In this document: positions 223 through 26,639 of the stretch, piece by piece
How positions within the stretch are numbered: the stretch's first letter is position 1
How the letters are laid out: each line of letters starts with the position of its first letter
Origin: Candidatus Omnitrophota bacterium
GTDB lineage: Bacteria > Ratteibacteria > UBA8468 > B48-G9 > DTJG01
Length of the DNA: 38,809 nt
Assembly (NCBI GenBank): GCA_023484085.1
Contig: JAMDAS010000026.1
Coordinates: 1-38,809 of the forward strand
Direction: 5' to 3'
Notes under the pieces: generated by a model
Database searches by the model: none
What the model was told of the DNA's origin: nothing
Seen by the model: the letters and a program-made list of their open reading frames with translations, nothing else
Made by a program: the position numbers and the translations under genes

Positions 223-1636
223 TTTTCTTGACCTCATTTACCAATTTGGATACAGAATCTTTTGCATCACCAAAAAGCATCCTGGTGTTTGGCTTATAAA
301 AAAGCTCATTCTCAATTCCTGCAAAACCAGGGTTCATACTCCGTTTTAAAACAATGGTCTGTTTGGCCTGTTCAACATCTAAAATCGGCATACCGTAAAT
401 AGGGCTGCCAGGACTATTACGGGCAGCAGGATTTACCACGTCATTTGCTCCTATGACAAGAACGACGTCTGCCCGCTTAAATTCAGGATTAATCTGGTCC
501 ATCTCATAAAGACGGTCATAAGGCACGTTGGCTTCAGCAAGAAGAACGTTCATATGCCCCGGCATACGTCCTGCAACCGGGTGAATTGCATATTTTACGT
601 CAACCCCTCTTTTTTCCAGTTCAATCTCCAATTCCCTGACTTGGTGCTGTGCCTGGGCAACTGCCAGTCCATAACCGGGAACGATTATGACAAGCTGGGC
701 ATAGGCAAGCATAACAGCCACGTCATCTGCCGTAATTGGTTTAACATTTTGGTCTTTTATGGAAGCAGAAGGAGAAGTCTTAGTGGCAACCTTTCCAAAA
801 GCTCCAAAGAGAACATTTGTAATGGAGCGATTCATCGCCTTACACATCAAAATGGTAAGCAACGTACCTGAAGAACCGACAAGAGTTCCGCCTATAATCA
901 TGGCAACGTTATTTATGGTGAATCCATCAGCAGCTACGGCAATACCGGTAAAAGAGTTAAGAAATGAAATAATTACAGGCATATCTGCACCGCCAATAGG
1001 TAATACCATCAGTACTCCAAAGAGCAATGATATTATAAAAAACCAGCCAAAAATTACGGGATTATGGGCAATACCTGCTAAGTATATACCCAATAAAACA
1101 ATACCAAACAAAATAATTCCATTAACAATCTTCTGAAGGGGATACGTTATCGGCCGCTCTATTAATCCCTGTAATTTACCAAAGGCGATTAAACTCCCTG
1201 TAAAAGAAATGGAACCAATAAAAGAGGCAAAAAGCATCGTGATTGCAAAGGAAGACGAAATAGTTCCCGGATGGTGCGCATGGGTAAGAAATTCCATTGT
1301 TGCAACTAATGCTGCTGCACCACCGCCAACTCCATTAAACAGAGCCACCATTTGAGGAATCGCAGTCATTTTAACCAAATACGCTCCTAATGCTCCGATA
1401 ATCAACCCTATTAATATACCTGCAATAATTAAAATATAGTTAAGCAGGTGGTGATGAAATGCGGATTTACCGGTTACCCCGGACAATAATGGAATGGTAG
1501 AGACAATTGCAATAAACATCCCTGCTGCTGATATTAGATTCCCTGAACGGGCTGTTTCCGGGGAACTCAACCGTTTCATACCCAAAATAAATAAAACTGC
1601 GGAAACCAGATAGAGCAAGCCAATTGTCAAATTCAT
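215..1636 (-). CDS. pntB: NAD(P) transhydrogenase subunit beta
   Basis: This 473-aa protein is full length for PntB. The first ~260 residues form a run of hydrophobic membrane helices that build the proton channel, with glycine-rich segments such as GALGAYLVKMTAIPQM and NGVGGGAAALVA. The C-terminal ~180 residues are the NADP(H)-binding domain III: GYGLAVAQAQ near residue 320, GRMPGHMNVLLAEA, and GANDVVNPAA near residue 400, ending in FGDAK. With PntAA and PntAB it couples hydride transfer between NADH and NADP+ to proton movement across the cytoplasmic membrane, supplying NADPH. Its ATG overlaps the pntAB stop by 4 bases (1633-1636), so translation is probably coupled. The 3' end overlaps the convergent upstream-strand gene by 8 bases, leaving no room for a separate terminator. 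Confidence 0.95.
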   Translation of the reverse strand: MNLTIGLLYLVSAVLFILGMKRLSSPETARSGNLISAAGMFIAIVSTIPLLSGVTGKSAFHHHLLNYILIIAGILIGLIIGALGAYLVKMTAIPQMVALFNGVGGGAAALVATMEFLTHAHHPGTISSSFAITMLFASFIGSISFTGSLIAFGKLQGLIERPITYPLQKIVNGIILFGIVLLGIYLAGIAHNPVIFGWFFIISLLFGVLMVLPIGGADMPVIISFLNSFTGIAVAADGFTINNVAMIIGGTLVGSSGTLLTILMCKAMNRSITNVLFGAFGKVATKTSPSASIKDQNVKPITADDVAVMLAYAQLVIIVPGYGLAVAQAQHQVRELEIELEKRGVDVKYAIHPVAGRMPGHMNVLLAEANVPYDRLYEMDQINPEFKRADVVLVIGANDVVNPAARNSPGSPIYGMPILDVEQAKQTIVLKRSMNPGFAGIENELFYKPNTRMLFGDAKDSVSKLVNEVKKIK

Positions 1637-1926
1637 TTTTTCTTCCTTTTAAACATTTCCAGCATACGATTGGTGACCATGAATCCTCCAAAAACATTGA
1701 TTGAACCAAAAACAACTGCAATAAAACCAAAAATAAAAGCCAAAAGACTAGATGCAGAAGCAAGTACGAGAATACCGCCAATAAGAATAATTCCATGAAT
1801 GGCATTTGTTCCTGACATAAGAGGCGTATGAAGAATTACAGGAACCTTGGATATAACCTCAAATCCTACAAAAATTGCCATAATAAATATATAAAAAAGA
1901 AAAAGACCAACTGTAGAGCCTGTCAT
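1633..1926 (-). CDS. pntAB: NAD(P) transhydrogenase subunit alpha 2 (membrane part)
   Basis: This 97-aa protein has three hydrophobic segments (about residues 5-25, 40-62 and 65-85) and the conserved block FEVISKVPVILHTPLMSGTNAIHGIILIG, which marks the membrane domain that E. coli carries at the C-terminus of PntA. Here it is a separate subunit, as in the three-gene Rhodospirillum-type enzyme. The start is supported by a strong Shine-Dalgarno (AGGGAGG, about 6 bases upstream of ATG 1926). It is followed by pntB with a 4-base overlap. The gap to pntAA upstream is unusually large (189 bases) because a copy of the dispersed hairpin repeat sits there. Confidence 0.93.
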   Translation of the reverse strand: MTGSTVGLFLFYIFIMAIFVGFEVISKVPVILHTPLMSGTNAIHGIILIGGILVLASASSLLAFIFGFIAVVFGSINVFGGFMVTNRMLEMFKRKKK

Positions 1927-1957
1927 ATAATTATCCTCCCTGGTACATTTTATTTTA

Positions 1958-2114
1958 GTAAATATTTAGTAAACCCCGTCTCAGTGATTGAAATGAAAAT
2001 GTTCAGAGATAAGTTATGGATTGCTCTTTATATCTTTATAAAGATAAATGCTTCAAATAAAGATTTCAAGACAATCCAAACTTATTTCAAGCACCGTTCT
2101 ACTTGAGTATTTAC
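1958..2114. repeat. Dispersed hairpin repeat, copy A (inside pnt operon)
   Basis: The element starts with GTAAATATT and ends with GAGTATTTAC, so its ends are short inverted repeats (GTAAATA / TATTTAC). Inside, the arm with GGATTGCTCTTTATATCTTT pairs imperfectly with the arm AAAGATTTCAAGACAATCC, and the centre ATCTTTATAAAGAT is itself a palindrome, so the whole can fold as one long hairpin. It fills the pntAA-pntAB gap and its right end lies one base from the pntAA stop codon. Closely related to copies B, C and D. Confidence 0.85.
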
Positions 2115-2115
2115 T

Positions 2116-3237
2116 TTATTTTTTAAGTATCTCCCCCTGGTGTGTAATACAGGTCTGTTTAATAATCGGGTCATTAAAATCCATGTTCAGTCTGCCTTCT
2201 TGGACAATAAGATTAAAAAAACTGAAAATATTGCGTGAATACATTTGACTGGCATGGCAGCTCATCATGCTGGGTATATTAACCGGACCAAGTATTGTAA
2301 CATTATTATGGAGTACCGATTTGTCTGCCTGCGTCAGTTCACAATTTCCACCCTGTTCCGCGGCAATATCAACAATAACAGAACCGGGTTTCATTGTTTC
2401 CACCATTTCCCTGGTAATAAGAATAGGTGCCCGTTTACCGGGTATCAGGGCAGTGGAAATAGCAATATCTGCATCTTTTATATATTGTGCAATGAGTTCC
2501 TTTTCCCTGACCTGGTGTTCCTGGCTTACCTCTTTTGCATAGCCTGTGGCAGAGGCGGCTTCTTCTATAGCCAAACCAACAAATTTTGCCCCTAAGCTTT
2601 CCACCTCCTGTTTTACTGCCGGCCGGACATCAAATGCCTGAACAATGGCACCTAACCGCCGGGCAGTAGCAATAGCCTGCAACCCGGCAACGCCTGCCCC
2701 CAATATAAAAACTTTAGCAGGAATAATCGTTCCTGCTGCAGTCATCATCATTGGAAAAAACCTTTTAAGTTCATTCGCAGCCAATAAAACTGATTTATAT
2801 CCTGATATACTGCTCTGGGATGAAAGAATGTCCATTGATTGGGCACGGCTTATACGCGGGATAAAATTCAGACTGAAACCGGTAATTTTATTTTTTGTCA
2901 GCATCTGTATAGTTTCAGGATCAGAACCTGGCTGAAGCAGACCAATCAAAACTGCCCCCTGTTTTATCATATCAATCTCATGTTTATTGATGGATTGATT
3001 AAGAACCGGTTTCTGAACCTTAAACACAACATCTGAATCGCTTAACAGTGTTTGCACGTCCGATACTATTTTTGCCCCGGCGTCAGCATAGAATTTATCC
3101 GGAAAATCGGCGTTTTCACCTGCCTTTGATTCAACAGATACGTTCATCCCTGCCCTGACTAATTTTGCCACTGTTTCAGGAATGATTGCAACACGATGCT
3201 CATTAACTACAATTTCTTTTGGAATAGCTATTTTCAT
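2116..3237 (-). CDS. pntAA: NAD(P) transhydrogenase subunit alpha 1 (NAD-binding)
   Basis: This 373-aa soluble protein belongs to the alanine dehydrogenase/PNT family. It opens with the typical MKIAIPKEIVVNEHRVAIIPE; the Rossmann fold has GAGVAGLQAIATARRLGA at about residues 180-197, followed by QAFDVRPAVKQEVESLGAKF and, in the mobile loop region, CELTQADK. It binds NAD(H) as domain I of the transhydrogenase. The length fits the split-alpha form, because the membrane part is encoded by pntAB. Alanine dehydrogenase is the main alternative, but the following pntAB and pntB settle the role. No strong Shine-Dalgarno is visible before ATG 3237. Repeat copies lie at both ends (A at the stop, B just upstream of the start). 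Confidence 0.95.
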   Translation of the reverse strand: MKIAIPKEIVVNEHRVAIIPETVAKLVRAGMNVSVESKAGENADFPDKFYADAGAKIVSDVQTLLSDSDVVFKVQKPVLNQSINKHEIDMIKQGAVLIGLLQPGSDPETIQMLTKNKITGFSLNFIPRISRAQSMDILSSQSSISGYKSVLLAANELKRFFPMMMTAAGTIIPAKVFILGAGVAGLQAIATARRLGAIVQAFDVRPAVKQEVESLGAKFVGLAIEEAASATGYAKEVSQEHQVREKELIAQYIKDADIAISTALIPGKRAPILITREMVETMKPGSVIVDIAAEQGGNCELTQADKSVLHNNVTILGPVNIPSMMSCHASQMYSRNIFSFFNLIVQEGRLNMDFNDPIIKQTCITHQGEILKK

Positions 3238-3256
3238 AATTTTCTATTCAAACCCC

Positions 3257-3402
3257 GTAAATATTCCAGGTATAATGGACTGAGCTGAAGTAAGAAATAA
3301 GTTCTGGATTGCTCTTTATATCTTTATAAAGATAAATGCTTCAAATAAAGATTTAAAGACAATCCAAACTTACTTCAGACGTCGTTCTACTTGAGTATTT
3401 AC
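3257..3402. repeat. Dispersed hairpin repeat, copy B
   Basis: This 146-base copy starts with GTAAATATT and ends with GAGTATTTAC. It is the clearest hairpin: the arm around 3298-3325 (containing TCTGGATTGCTCTTTAT) pairs with the arm around 3347-3373 (containing TAAAGACAATCCAAACTTA). Its central 80 bases are nearly identical to copy A. It lies 20 bases upstream of the pntAA start codon, so it must sit in or near that operon's promoter, and its right end is directly followed by the tRNA 3'-end duplication. Confidence 0.85.
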
Positions 3403-3403
3403 C

Positions 3404-3450
3404 AAACCCCTTTCTCGCAGTAAGAATTACCAAAAGCGGAAAACGGGATT
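3404..3450. repeat. Direct repeat of tRNA-Gly 3' end and trailer (distal copy)
   Basis: These 47 bases match 3555-3601 at 44 positions. Read on the minus strand they carry the last 15 bases of tRNA-Gly, with base changes, followed by its trailer. The two copies start 151 bases apart. Duplicated tRNA 3' ends of this kind are typical of integrase attachment sites, but no integrase is present in the window. Confidence 0.7.
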
Positions 3451-3554
3451 GTGCTGGAACTATCAAAGATGCACCACTGACGCACACTCTCCGCCTTCTT
3501 TGGAAAACAACTACCTATATGGTAAAAACAGGCGTCGTGGTGAACCCATGGTTC

Positions 3555-3601
3555 AAACCCCTTTCTCGCAGTAAGAATTACTAAGAGCGGGAAACGGGAT
3601 T
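3555..3601. repeat. Direct repeat of tRNA-Gly 3' end and trailer (proximal copy)
   Basis: This is the intact copy: on the minus strand it runs from the T-arm and acceptor 3' strand of tRNA-Gly into the trailer. It matches 3404-3450 with three substitutions, two of which alter the acceptor-stem part in the distal copy. The 104 bases between the copies (3451-3554) contain no recognisable gene. Confidence 0.7.
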
Positions 3602-3657
3602 TGAACCCGCGACTTCGACCTTGGCAAGGTCGCACTCTACCGCTGAGTTATTCCCGC
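3586..3657 (-). tRNA. tRNA-Gly (anticodon GCC)
   Basis: On the minus strand the 7-bp acceptor stem GCGGGAA / TTCCCGC closes a full cloverleaf. The D-arm region is CTCAGCGGTAGAG; the anticodon stem CGACC / GGTCG encloses the loop TTGCCAA with anticodon GCC; the T-arm is GCGGG TTCAAAT CCCGT. The discriminator base is T, as usual for bacterial tRNA-Gly, and CCA is not encoded. A 47-base duplication of its 3' end and trailer lies downstream. Confidence 0.96.
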
Positions 3658-3732
3658 ATATAAAAGAAAAATATTGCATATAATATAAATAAATCTTATA
3701 TCTCTGTCAATAGACTGTGAAAATTATGTTTT

Positions 3733-3882
3733 GTAAATATTCACTAAACAGTGTTAATAATTTACTGAGCTGAAGTAGGAAATAAGTTTTAGATTGCTCT
3801 TCTCATCTTTGTAAAAACATTCTTTCAAACAAAGCCTCAAAGACAATCCAAACTTATTTCAAACACCGTTCACTTAGCATTT
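3733..3882. repeat. Dispersed hairpin repeat, copy C (degenerate)
   Basis: This copy starts with GTAAATATTCACTAAACAGTG and keeps the TGAGCTGAAGTA, AGATTGCTCTT and AAAGACAATCCAAACTTATTTCAAAC blocks of copies A and B. The centre is diverged and the right end has decayed to TTAGCATTTT. It stops one base short of the epimerase stop codon (3884), again abutting a stop codon. Confidence 0.75.
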
Positions 3883-3883
3883 T

Positions 3884-4849
3884 CTATATTTGTATTCTTG
3901 AAATCTGTTTTTTATTTTCAATATACCATTCAACGGTTCTTTTTAATCCTTCATTAAACGAAACTGCCGGTGTCCAACCGAGTAATTTCTTTGCTTTCTC
4001 AATACCTGCCCAGGTTGATTTCATATCTGAAGGATGAAAAGCCTTATATATAATTTCCGCTTTTTTTCCGAGGAGATTTTCTATCGTACGTATAACCTCT
4101 TTTAAATCATGCGGGTCATCACTTCCAAGGTTTATAATTTCAAACCCGAGACTTTTCTTTGCCAAAAATGTTCCTTTGCCTATGTCATCAATATAAGTAA
4201 AATCCCTGCTTTGTGAACCATCACCATAAACAATAATTTTTTTACCCTCGTCAATCTGTTTTATAAATCTGAATATTGACATATCAGGTCTGCCCCAGGG
4301 CCCGTATACGGTAAAATAACGGAGAATTGTTATGTCTATTCCATAAAGATAATTGTATGTATAACAGGTAACCTCAGCTGATTTTTTTGATGCAGCATAT
4401 GGAGATATTGGTTCATTTACAGGTAAAATTTCAGTAAATGGCATCTTCTGGCCTGCATACAGTGATGACGTGGAAGAAAATATAAATTTTTTAGATTTAT
4501 ATTTTTTTGCCAGTTCAAGCAGGTTAAGGGTTGCCATGGTATTTACCTGAAAATATATATAAGGATTCAATATACTTGCTCTTACACCCGCCCGTGCCGC
4601 CAAATTTACGATAATATCCGGTAAAAAATTCCTGACAATCTTTTCAACAGAATTTTTATTGGTAACGTCAACCTTTTTGAACGTAAAGTTTTTTTTGGAG
4701 GTAAGGGTTTTAAGCCGTAAAAGTTTTAGTTGAACGTCATAATAATCATTAAGGTCATCTATTCCAAAAACCTCATACCCCTTATTTAAAAATTCCTCAC
4801 ATGTTTTATGTCCGATAAAACCAGCACAGCCTGTAATTAAAGATTTCAT
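3884..4849 (-). CDS. NAD-dependent nucleotide-sugar epimerase (UDP-glucuronate 4-epimerase-like)
   Basis: This 321-aa short-chain dehydrogenase/reductase of the extended type has the NAD motif TGCAGFIG at residues 6-13, an acidic DDLNDYYD at 31-38, NLAARAGVR near 82-90, the SSTSSLYAG catalytic-site strand, and the catalytic pair Y151-xxx-K155 in SPYAASKKSAE. The block FTVYGPWGRPDMSIF, followed by IYGDGSQSRDFTYIDD-like residues, is typical of UDP-glucuronate 4-epimerases, which make UDP-galacturonate for surface polysaccharides; UDP-glucose/GlcNAc 4-epimerase is the alternative. It is the last gene of a three-gene minus-strand run with the rhomboid protein (19-base gap) and the P-type ATPase. 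Repeat copy C abuts its stop. Confidence 0.88.
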   Translation of the reverse strand: MKSLITGCAGFIGHKTCEEFLNKGYEVFGIDDLNDYYDVQLKLLRLKTLTSKKNFTFKKVDVTNKNSVEKIVRNFLPDIIVNLAARAGVRASILNPYIYFQVNTMATLNLLELAKKYKSKKFIFSSTSSLYAGQKMPFTEILPVNEPISPYAASKKSAEVTCYTYNYLYGIDITILRYFTVYGPWGRPDMSIFRFIKQIDEGKKIIVYGDGSQSRDFTYIDDIGKGTFLAKKSLGFEIINLGSDDPHDLKEVIRTIENLLGKKAEIIYKAFHPSDMKSTWAGIEKAKKLLGWTPAVSFNEGLKRTVEWYIENKKQISRIQI

Positions 4850-26559: not shown

Positions 26560-26639
26560 GTAAATATTCACTAAAACAGTGTTTTCGCCTCAAAGACAAT
26601 CCAAACTTATTTCAAACTCCGTTCTACTTGAGTATTTAC
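26560..26639. repeat. Dispersed hairpin repeat, copy D (internally deleted)
   Basis: This 80-base copy has both ends, GTAAATATTCACTAAAACAG and CTTGAGTATTTAC, and the right arm AAAGACAATCCAAACTTATTTC. The left arm and centre present in copies A-C are missing, so it cannot form the large hairpin. It sits between the divergent starts of comM and the glucan synthase gene. Confidence 0.8.

Follow-up and report, generated by a model that had tools for sequence, protein, structure and literature searches.

Hairpin-bearing miniature elements with IS66-type ends in a Candidatus Omnitrophota bacterium, and the orientation lock of one of their subfamilies

Overview

The genome of a Candidatus Omnitrophota bacterium (GCA_023484085.1) harbors many dispersed copies of a gene-less, hairpin-forming unit of 80-190 bp. 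The mobility of these elements is well supported, and one subfamily, distinguished by its young left arms, shows an orientation lock relative to the neighboring genes. Very probably they are MITEs mobilized by an IS66-family transposase and co-transcribed as hairpins that would affect mRNA in an orientation-dependent manner; this effect on RNA is the part that we infer.

Copies in the window

The window is a stretch of 38,809 nucleotides (JAMDAS010000026.1, contig C12 of the own genome, G000) from an assembly of 906 kb that is 62.6% complete. Four copies can be found in it, with the dimensions reported in the first-pass annotation, namely A (157 bp), B (146 bp), C (about 152 bp) and the internally deleted D (80 bp), and all four indeed lie on the plus strand. 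D falls outside the coordinates given in that annotation. The ends described as common to all are only partly so: the left end GTAAATATT is present in A, B, C, and D and the right end GAGTATTTAC in A, B, and D, the right end of C having decayed. The long imperfect hairpin is confirmed, with fold z-scores of -6.2 (A) and -7.2 (B) against dinucleotide shuffles.

Copy A (1958-2114, plus strand) lies between pntAB (1633-1926, minus strand) and pntAA (2116-3237, minus strand). Its left arm, GTAAATATTTAGTAAACCCCGTCTCAGTGATTG, resembles the end of an IS66 element of the sister genome, and its flanks display an imperfect duplication of TTTATTTT, offset by one base. Copy B (3257-3402, plus strand), with a short left arm of the L4 type, is bounded by an exact 8-bp target duplication, CAAACCCC, read from the sequence at 3249-3256 and 3403-3410. 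Copy C (3733-3884, plus strand) combines an L2-type left arm with the decayed right end TAGCATTTTC and a 6/8 duplication, and is found between tRNA-Gly (3586-3657, minus strand) and an epimerase-like gene (3884-4849, minus strand). Copy D (26560-26639, plus strand) retains the left end, the right arm, and the right end, likewise with a 6/8 duplication. R1, a covariance model built on the internal hairpin, matches the plus strand at 2001-2090 (A), 3289-3378 (B), and 3774-3862 (C). The genes adjoining A, B, and C are all on the minus strand. The earlier remark that several copies end within one or two bases of a stop codon applies to A and C, whose right ends abut the stop codons of neighboring open reading frames (ending at 2116 and 3884). 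A putative fifth copy at 37.5 kb was dropped owing to its poor alignment.

Next to B, at 3403-3600, the flank of tRNA-Gly is partly duplicated (TTCAAACCCCTTTCTCGCAGTAAGAATTAC occurs twice), and the syntenic block of the sister genome is devoid of this duplication. Between B and tRNA-Gly, at 3481-3545, a GC-rich module, CTCTCCGCCTTCTTTGGAAA...AAACAGGCGTCGTGGT, has 10 matches in the own genome and 15 in the sister genome; at C17:29481 and C14:49645, its reverse complement takes the place of the hairpin tip.

Distribution among genomes

DNA searches, each with 40 candidates scored, located the element at more than 40 places in the own genome. The R1 model, searched in this genome, in the sister genome (G001, a draft of the same genus, 90% complete, and the sole same-genus genome compared), and in eight genomes of the same family, returned 97 rows in the own genome, many of which are one palindrome counted on both strands. 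After merging all searches, the genome-wide count proposed in the first-pass annotation stands at 53 loci in 906 kb, and the family is thus dispersed. At least one recognizable IS66-type end (GTAAATATTC / GAGTATTTAC) is present at 41 of these loci, and at the other 12 the hairpin occurs without such ends. About 16 copies can be found in the sister genome, none in the eight same-family genomes searched with R1, and none in 59 other relatives searched with a DNA query; among the relatives tested, the hairpin MITE family is genus-specific.

The alternative on which the earlier reading would have had to be given up, i.e., that the copies are local only, is refuted by these genome-wide copies. That A, B, and C all lie inside 2 kb, with the partial duplication of the tRNA flank adjoining B, is what a duplication around tRNA-Gly and pntA without any mobility would have in its favor. 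Against it stand not only the 53 loci but also their differing flanks and arms, the 8-bp duplications, and the empty orthologous sites described below.

Evidence for mobility

The element is bounded by terminal inverted repeats, the left one being GTAAATATTCA and the right one the reverse complement of TGAGTATTTAC. For the 33 copies in which both ends could be located, the 8 bases preceding the left end were compared with the 8 that follow the right end. A target duplication at 7/8 or 8/8 identity was observed in 12 of the 33, against 0.16 expected when the flanks of different copies are paired. This signal is confined to a width of 8, there being little or nothing at widths 4-7 and 9-12. The look for target-site duplications that had been suggested therefore gave a positive answer.

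Empty sites were searched for with pntAA as query. In the sister genome, locus L145 keeps the gene order epimerase-like gene, tRNA-Gly, pntAA, pntAB, and A, B, and C are all absent there; a loss from the sister genome is formally possible as well. Together with the 8-bp duplications and with an IS66 element of the sister genome that has a near-identical end, these empty sites bear out the MITE reading.

An IS66 element with matching ends

IS66 was suspected because of the GTAA ends and the 8-bp duplications. An IS66 study describes 8-bp repeats and inverted repeats starting with GTAAGCG (PMC11946415), where the start here is GTAAATA. A profile search with PF03050 gave no match in the own genome (62.6% complete) and one in the sister genome. 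The latter match belongs to an IS66-family element of 2487 bp (L081:1163-3649), which is flanked by a perfect 8-bp target duplication, ATAGAAAC, and encodes a 587-aa IS66 transposase (PF03050, E = 2e-48). Inside the element, beside the transposase, a 111-aa DUF6788 protein is also encoded (L081:3039-3374; PF20586, E = 5.5e-16). The GTAA ends, the 8-bp direct duplication, and the DDE_Tnp_IS66 transposase of the sister-genome element are shared with IS66-family insertion sequences (PMC11946415), whereas the element has a transposase and a DUF6788 open reading frame, with no separate tnpA/tnpB pair recognized in the list of open reading frames. Unlike IS66 elements, the MITE is without any gene.

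The right end of the L081 element, GTAAATATTCACTGAACCCCGTCTCAGTTATTGA, matches the A-type arm of the copy at C14:75066 at 32 of 34 bases and the arm of copy A at 30 of 34; elsewhere in the L081 locus, the C14:75066 arm reaches 18 at best without gaps. Over the first 20 bases, agreement with the IS66 element is 12-16 for the right ends and the younger arms (L2-L4) taken together, and 15-16 for the young arms. Past the first 15-20 bases, both resemble it weakly. The transposase with matching ends that the first-pass annotation had proposed to look for is found in the sister genome. In the own genome as assembled, no transposase of the IS66, Y1, or DDE_3 families was matched, and that annotation had seen none in the window. 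From these sequence likenesses, we infer that the MITEs with IS66-type ends are moved by a transposase of the L081 type, or by a close relative that is lost or unassembled in the own genome. Such an enzyme would move the non-autonomous MITEs in trans, leaving the 8-bp duplication. In the open-access papers on IS66 and MITEs that were consulted, no description of an IS66-derived MITE was found, and a literature search on IS66 passengers or orientation-biased miniature elements returned nothing.

The core hairpin

The outer arms of the core hairpin, TAAGTTNTGGATTGCTCTT and AAGACAATCCAAACTTA, are near-constant in the own genome. In the sister genome, the stem varies on both sides (GGATTG/CAATCC, GGATTT/AAATCC, GGGTTT/AAACCC), while the unpaired C between the outer and the next stem is kept. 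Over 60 distinct sequences, 96% of cells pair, and double changes occur at 10 of 24 pairs against 3.6 in shuffles, none of 500 shuffles scoring as high; in slid versions of the hairpin alignment, pairing drops to 25-52%. These results support a conserved pairing of the internal hairpin. They fall short of proving an RNA function: the structure had guided the alignment, and the arms of a palindrome can correct each other, arm-to-arm template switching or correction being able to give paired changes as well. A search of the window against Rfam matched tRNA only, and a known RNA family was consequently rejected. The structured-RNA reading offered in the first-pass annotation is therefore retained in part, as a possible second layer: pairing is conserved and orientation follows the genes, without any Rfam match.

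Neither a terminator nor a promoter could be assigned to the copies, since the sole terminator-like site of 1880-3960 sits within a gene and the counts of promoter-like sites are inside the shuffle range. An IS630/mariner origin of the core with a TA duplication was also discarded, given that PF13358 (DDE_3) is absent and that the TA at the core ends is lost in variants of the sister genome.

The hairpin is modular. Its tip is interchangeable, some copies having a simple loop there and others a CCGCC...GGCGG hairpin or an extended GC-rich insert, and at C10:10753-10887 in the own genome the core is inverted relative to the IS66-type ends. L3-type left arms (e.g., C15:84131 and C14:61925 in the own genome) contain a small CCGCC(A/T)AAAAGATTGGCGG hairpin, which is also the hairpin tip in C13:32521 and in several copies of the sister genome. 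The core itself occurs in three settings: between GTAAATATTC ends, within elements of a second family bounded by CTGAAATTCYGACATAAG, and free of both. This second repeat family, with ends CTGAAATTCYGACATAAG / CTTATGTCRGAATTTCAG, gives 21 pattern hits in the own genome and 2 in the sister genome (control, 0 and 1); L154 (C6:37958-38086) and L170 (C14:47412), both in the own genome, are examples. Several of its members enclose the same core hairpin as the IS66-ended MITEs, and one has a possible 8-9 bp duplication (ATACCTGA).

Orientation relative to genes

Flanking genes were taken from uncurated open reading frames and from tRNAs predicted by ARAGORN. Among the young-arm copies located between co-directional genes, the genes run against the element in 22 cases and with it in none (p = 4.8e-7). 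The corresponding ratios are 3:2 for A-type copies and 3:5 for copies without IS66 ends. Counted earlier in coarser classes, the ratios were 26:2, 3:6, and, for all copies of the sister genome, 9:3; the few end-bearing copies of that genome include both orientations. Since the lock is absent from A-type and end-less copies and the sister genome is mixed, it belongs to one subfamily only, and the mode of insertion rather than selection could account for it. The young copies are mostly situated in short gaps between co-directional genes, just past a stop codon or tRNA, and in the 22 cases a median of 13.5 bp separates the right end from the stop codon, or the 3' end of the tRNA, that precedes it.

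Taking the presumed lagging strand to be that with the lower third-position GC skew, about 34% of genes lie on it in seven contigs. Replication direction alone would yield 0/22 with a probability of about 1e-4, or of 2e-3 for a share of 25%, so that, on the basis of these seven contigs, replication strand is unlikely to be the cause of the lock. Of 25 copies, 18 have a gene-sense strand whose fold is more stable than that of the complementary strand. Wobble events on pairs predicted for both strands amount to 3 vs. 1 distinct events, counts too few for this asymmetry to be accepted as proof of RNA selection.

Explanations for the lock

In the favored explanation, transcripts would run through the copies and form hairpins in the mRNA, one orientation being tolerated or useful and the other not. 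Copies in the opposite orientation would then be purged by selection, for example since they terminate or destabilize the transcript. The main rival for the orientation lock is directional insertion, whereby the transposition machinery or an asymmetry of the target sets the orientation of the young subfamily in transcribed gaps, the RNA hairpin being functionless. This is a tenable account to which we give less than even credence. The lock is already present in young copies with exact duplications, which are presumably recent, and same-core copies without IS66 ends are unlocked, as directional insertion would have it; for this last reason, the core hairpin alone fails to explain the lock. However, the A-type copies, whose ends are nearest to those of the IS66 element, are unlocked too, and the greater stability of the gene-sense strand hints at RNA selection, with the small wobble counts noted above.

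A proposal that we hold to be possible to the same degree makes the core hairpin itself the mobile or functional unit, as a structured RNA or as a DNA element recognized through its hairpin, the IS66 ends merely carrying some of the copies. The three contexts of the core point this way, as do the doubly changed pairs and the unpaired C that stays as the stem changes. Yet no target duplication of its own was recognized for the core, the Y1 and DDE_3 transposases are absent from both genomes, the window has no Rfam match for it, and paired changes in a palindrome also arise by template switching or in co-evolving end repeats.

Comparison with known repeats

Like REP/BIME elements, the copies are imperfect palindromes situated between genes; they share a conserved leader on the 5' side, ACTAAAGTAAGA, and the first-pass annotation had considered a REP-like reading. 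This reading, with movement by a RAYT transposase, is now highly improbable. REPs measure 20-40 bp (PMC3733652) and depend on RAYT transposases, neither of which holds here: the units of 80-190 bp have terminal inverted repeats and direct 8-bp duplications, and a search for PF01797 (Y1_Tnp), with positive controls, found none in either the own or the sister genome, the latter being 90% complete. Moreover, where REPs have a GTAG/GGAG tag, the leader here varies between GTAAG and GTAGG.

ERIC from Yersinia is a co-transcribed MITE with an orientation-dependent effect on mRNA involving RNase E, and NEMIS/Correia from Neisseria is a co-transcribed MITE processed by RNase III (PMC2229807, PMC10969869). 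Both are short, gene-less, intergenic, and hairpin-forming, as are the present elements, and can be regarded by analogy as precedents, ERIC for an orientation-dependent effect on mRNA and NEMIS/Correia for RNase III processing. They differ in their ends and sequence, and here a 22:0 lock is seen in one subfamily, with an RNA effect that is presumed. BOX from Streptococcus pneumoniae likewise consists of hairpin repeats built from modules, of which the internal ones can be exchanged, and at times it supplies a stop codon (PMC3049150). BOX, RUP, and SPRITE merely mirror the coding bias (61-63% on the leading strand), and convergent gene pairs hold more of them than expected (PMC3049150). Most copies here, by contrast, lie between co-directional genes, in one orientation.

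Significance

IS66-derived MITEs seem little described in the papers accessible to us. In a further reading, which is on balance unlikely, the hairpin module common to two MITE families would have turned into an orientation-locked intercistronic mRNA element in the youngest IS66-ended subfamily. If true, only one sense of the hairpin would survive in operons, and a mobile element would be in the course of being sorted by selection, or co-opted, into a regulator acting on RNA in many operons. The 22:0 lock is a simple and testable sign of an interplay between a mobile hairpin and transcription, for which the unbiased A-type copies and the copies without IS66 ends provide built-in controls.
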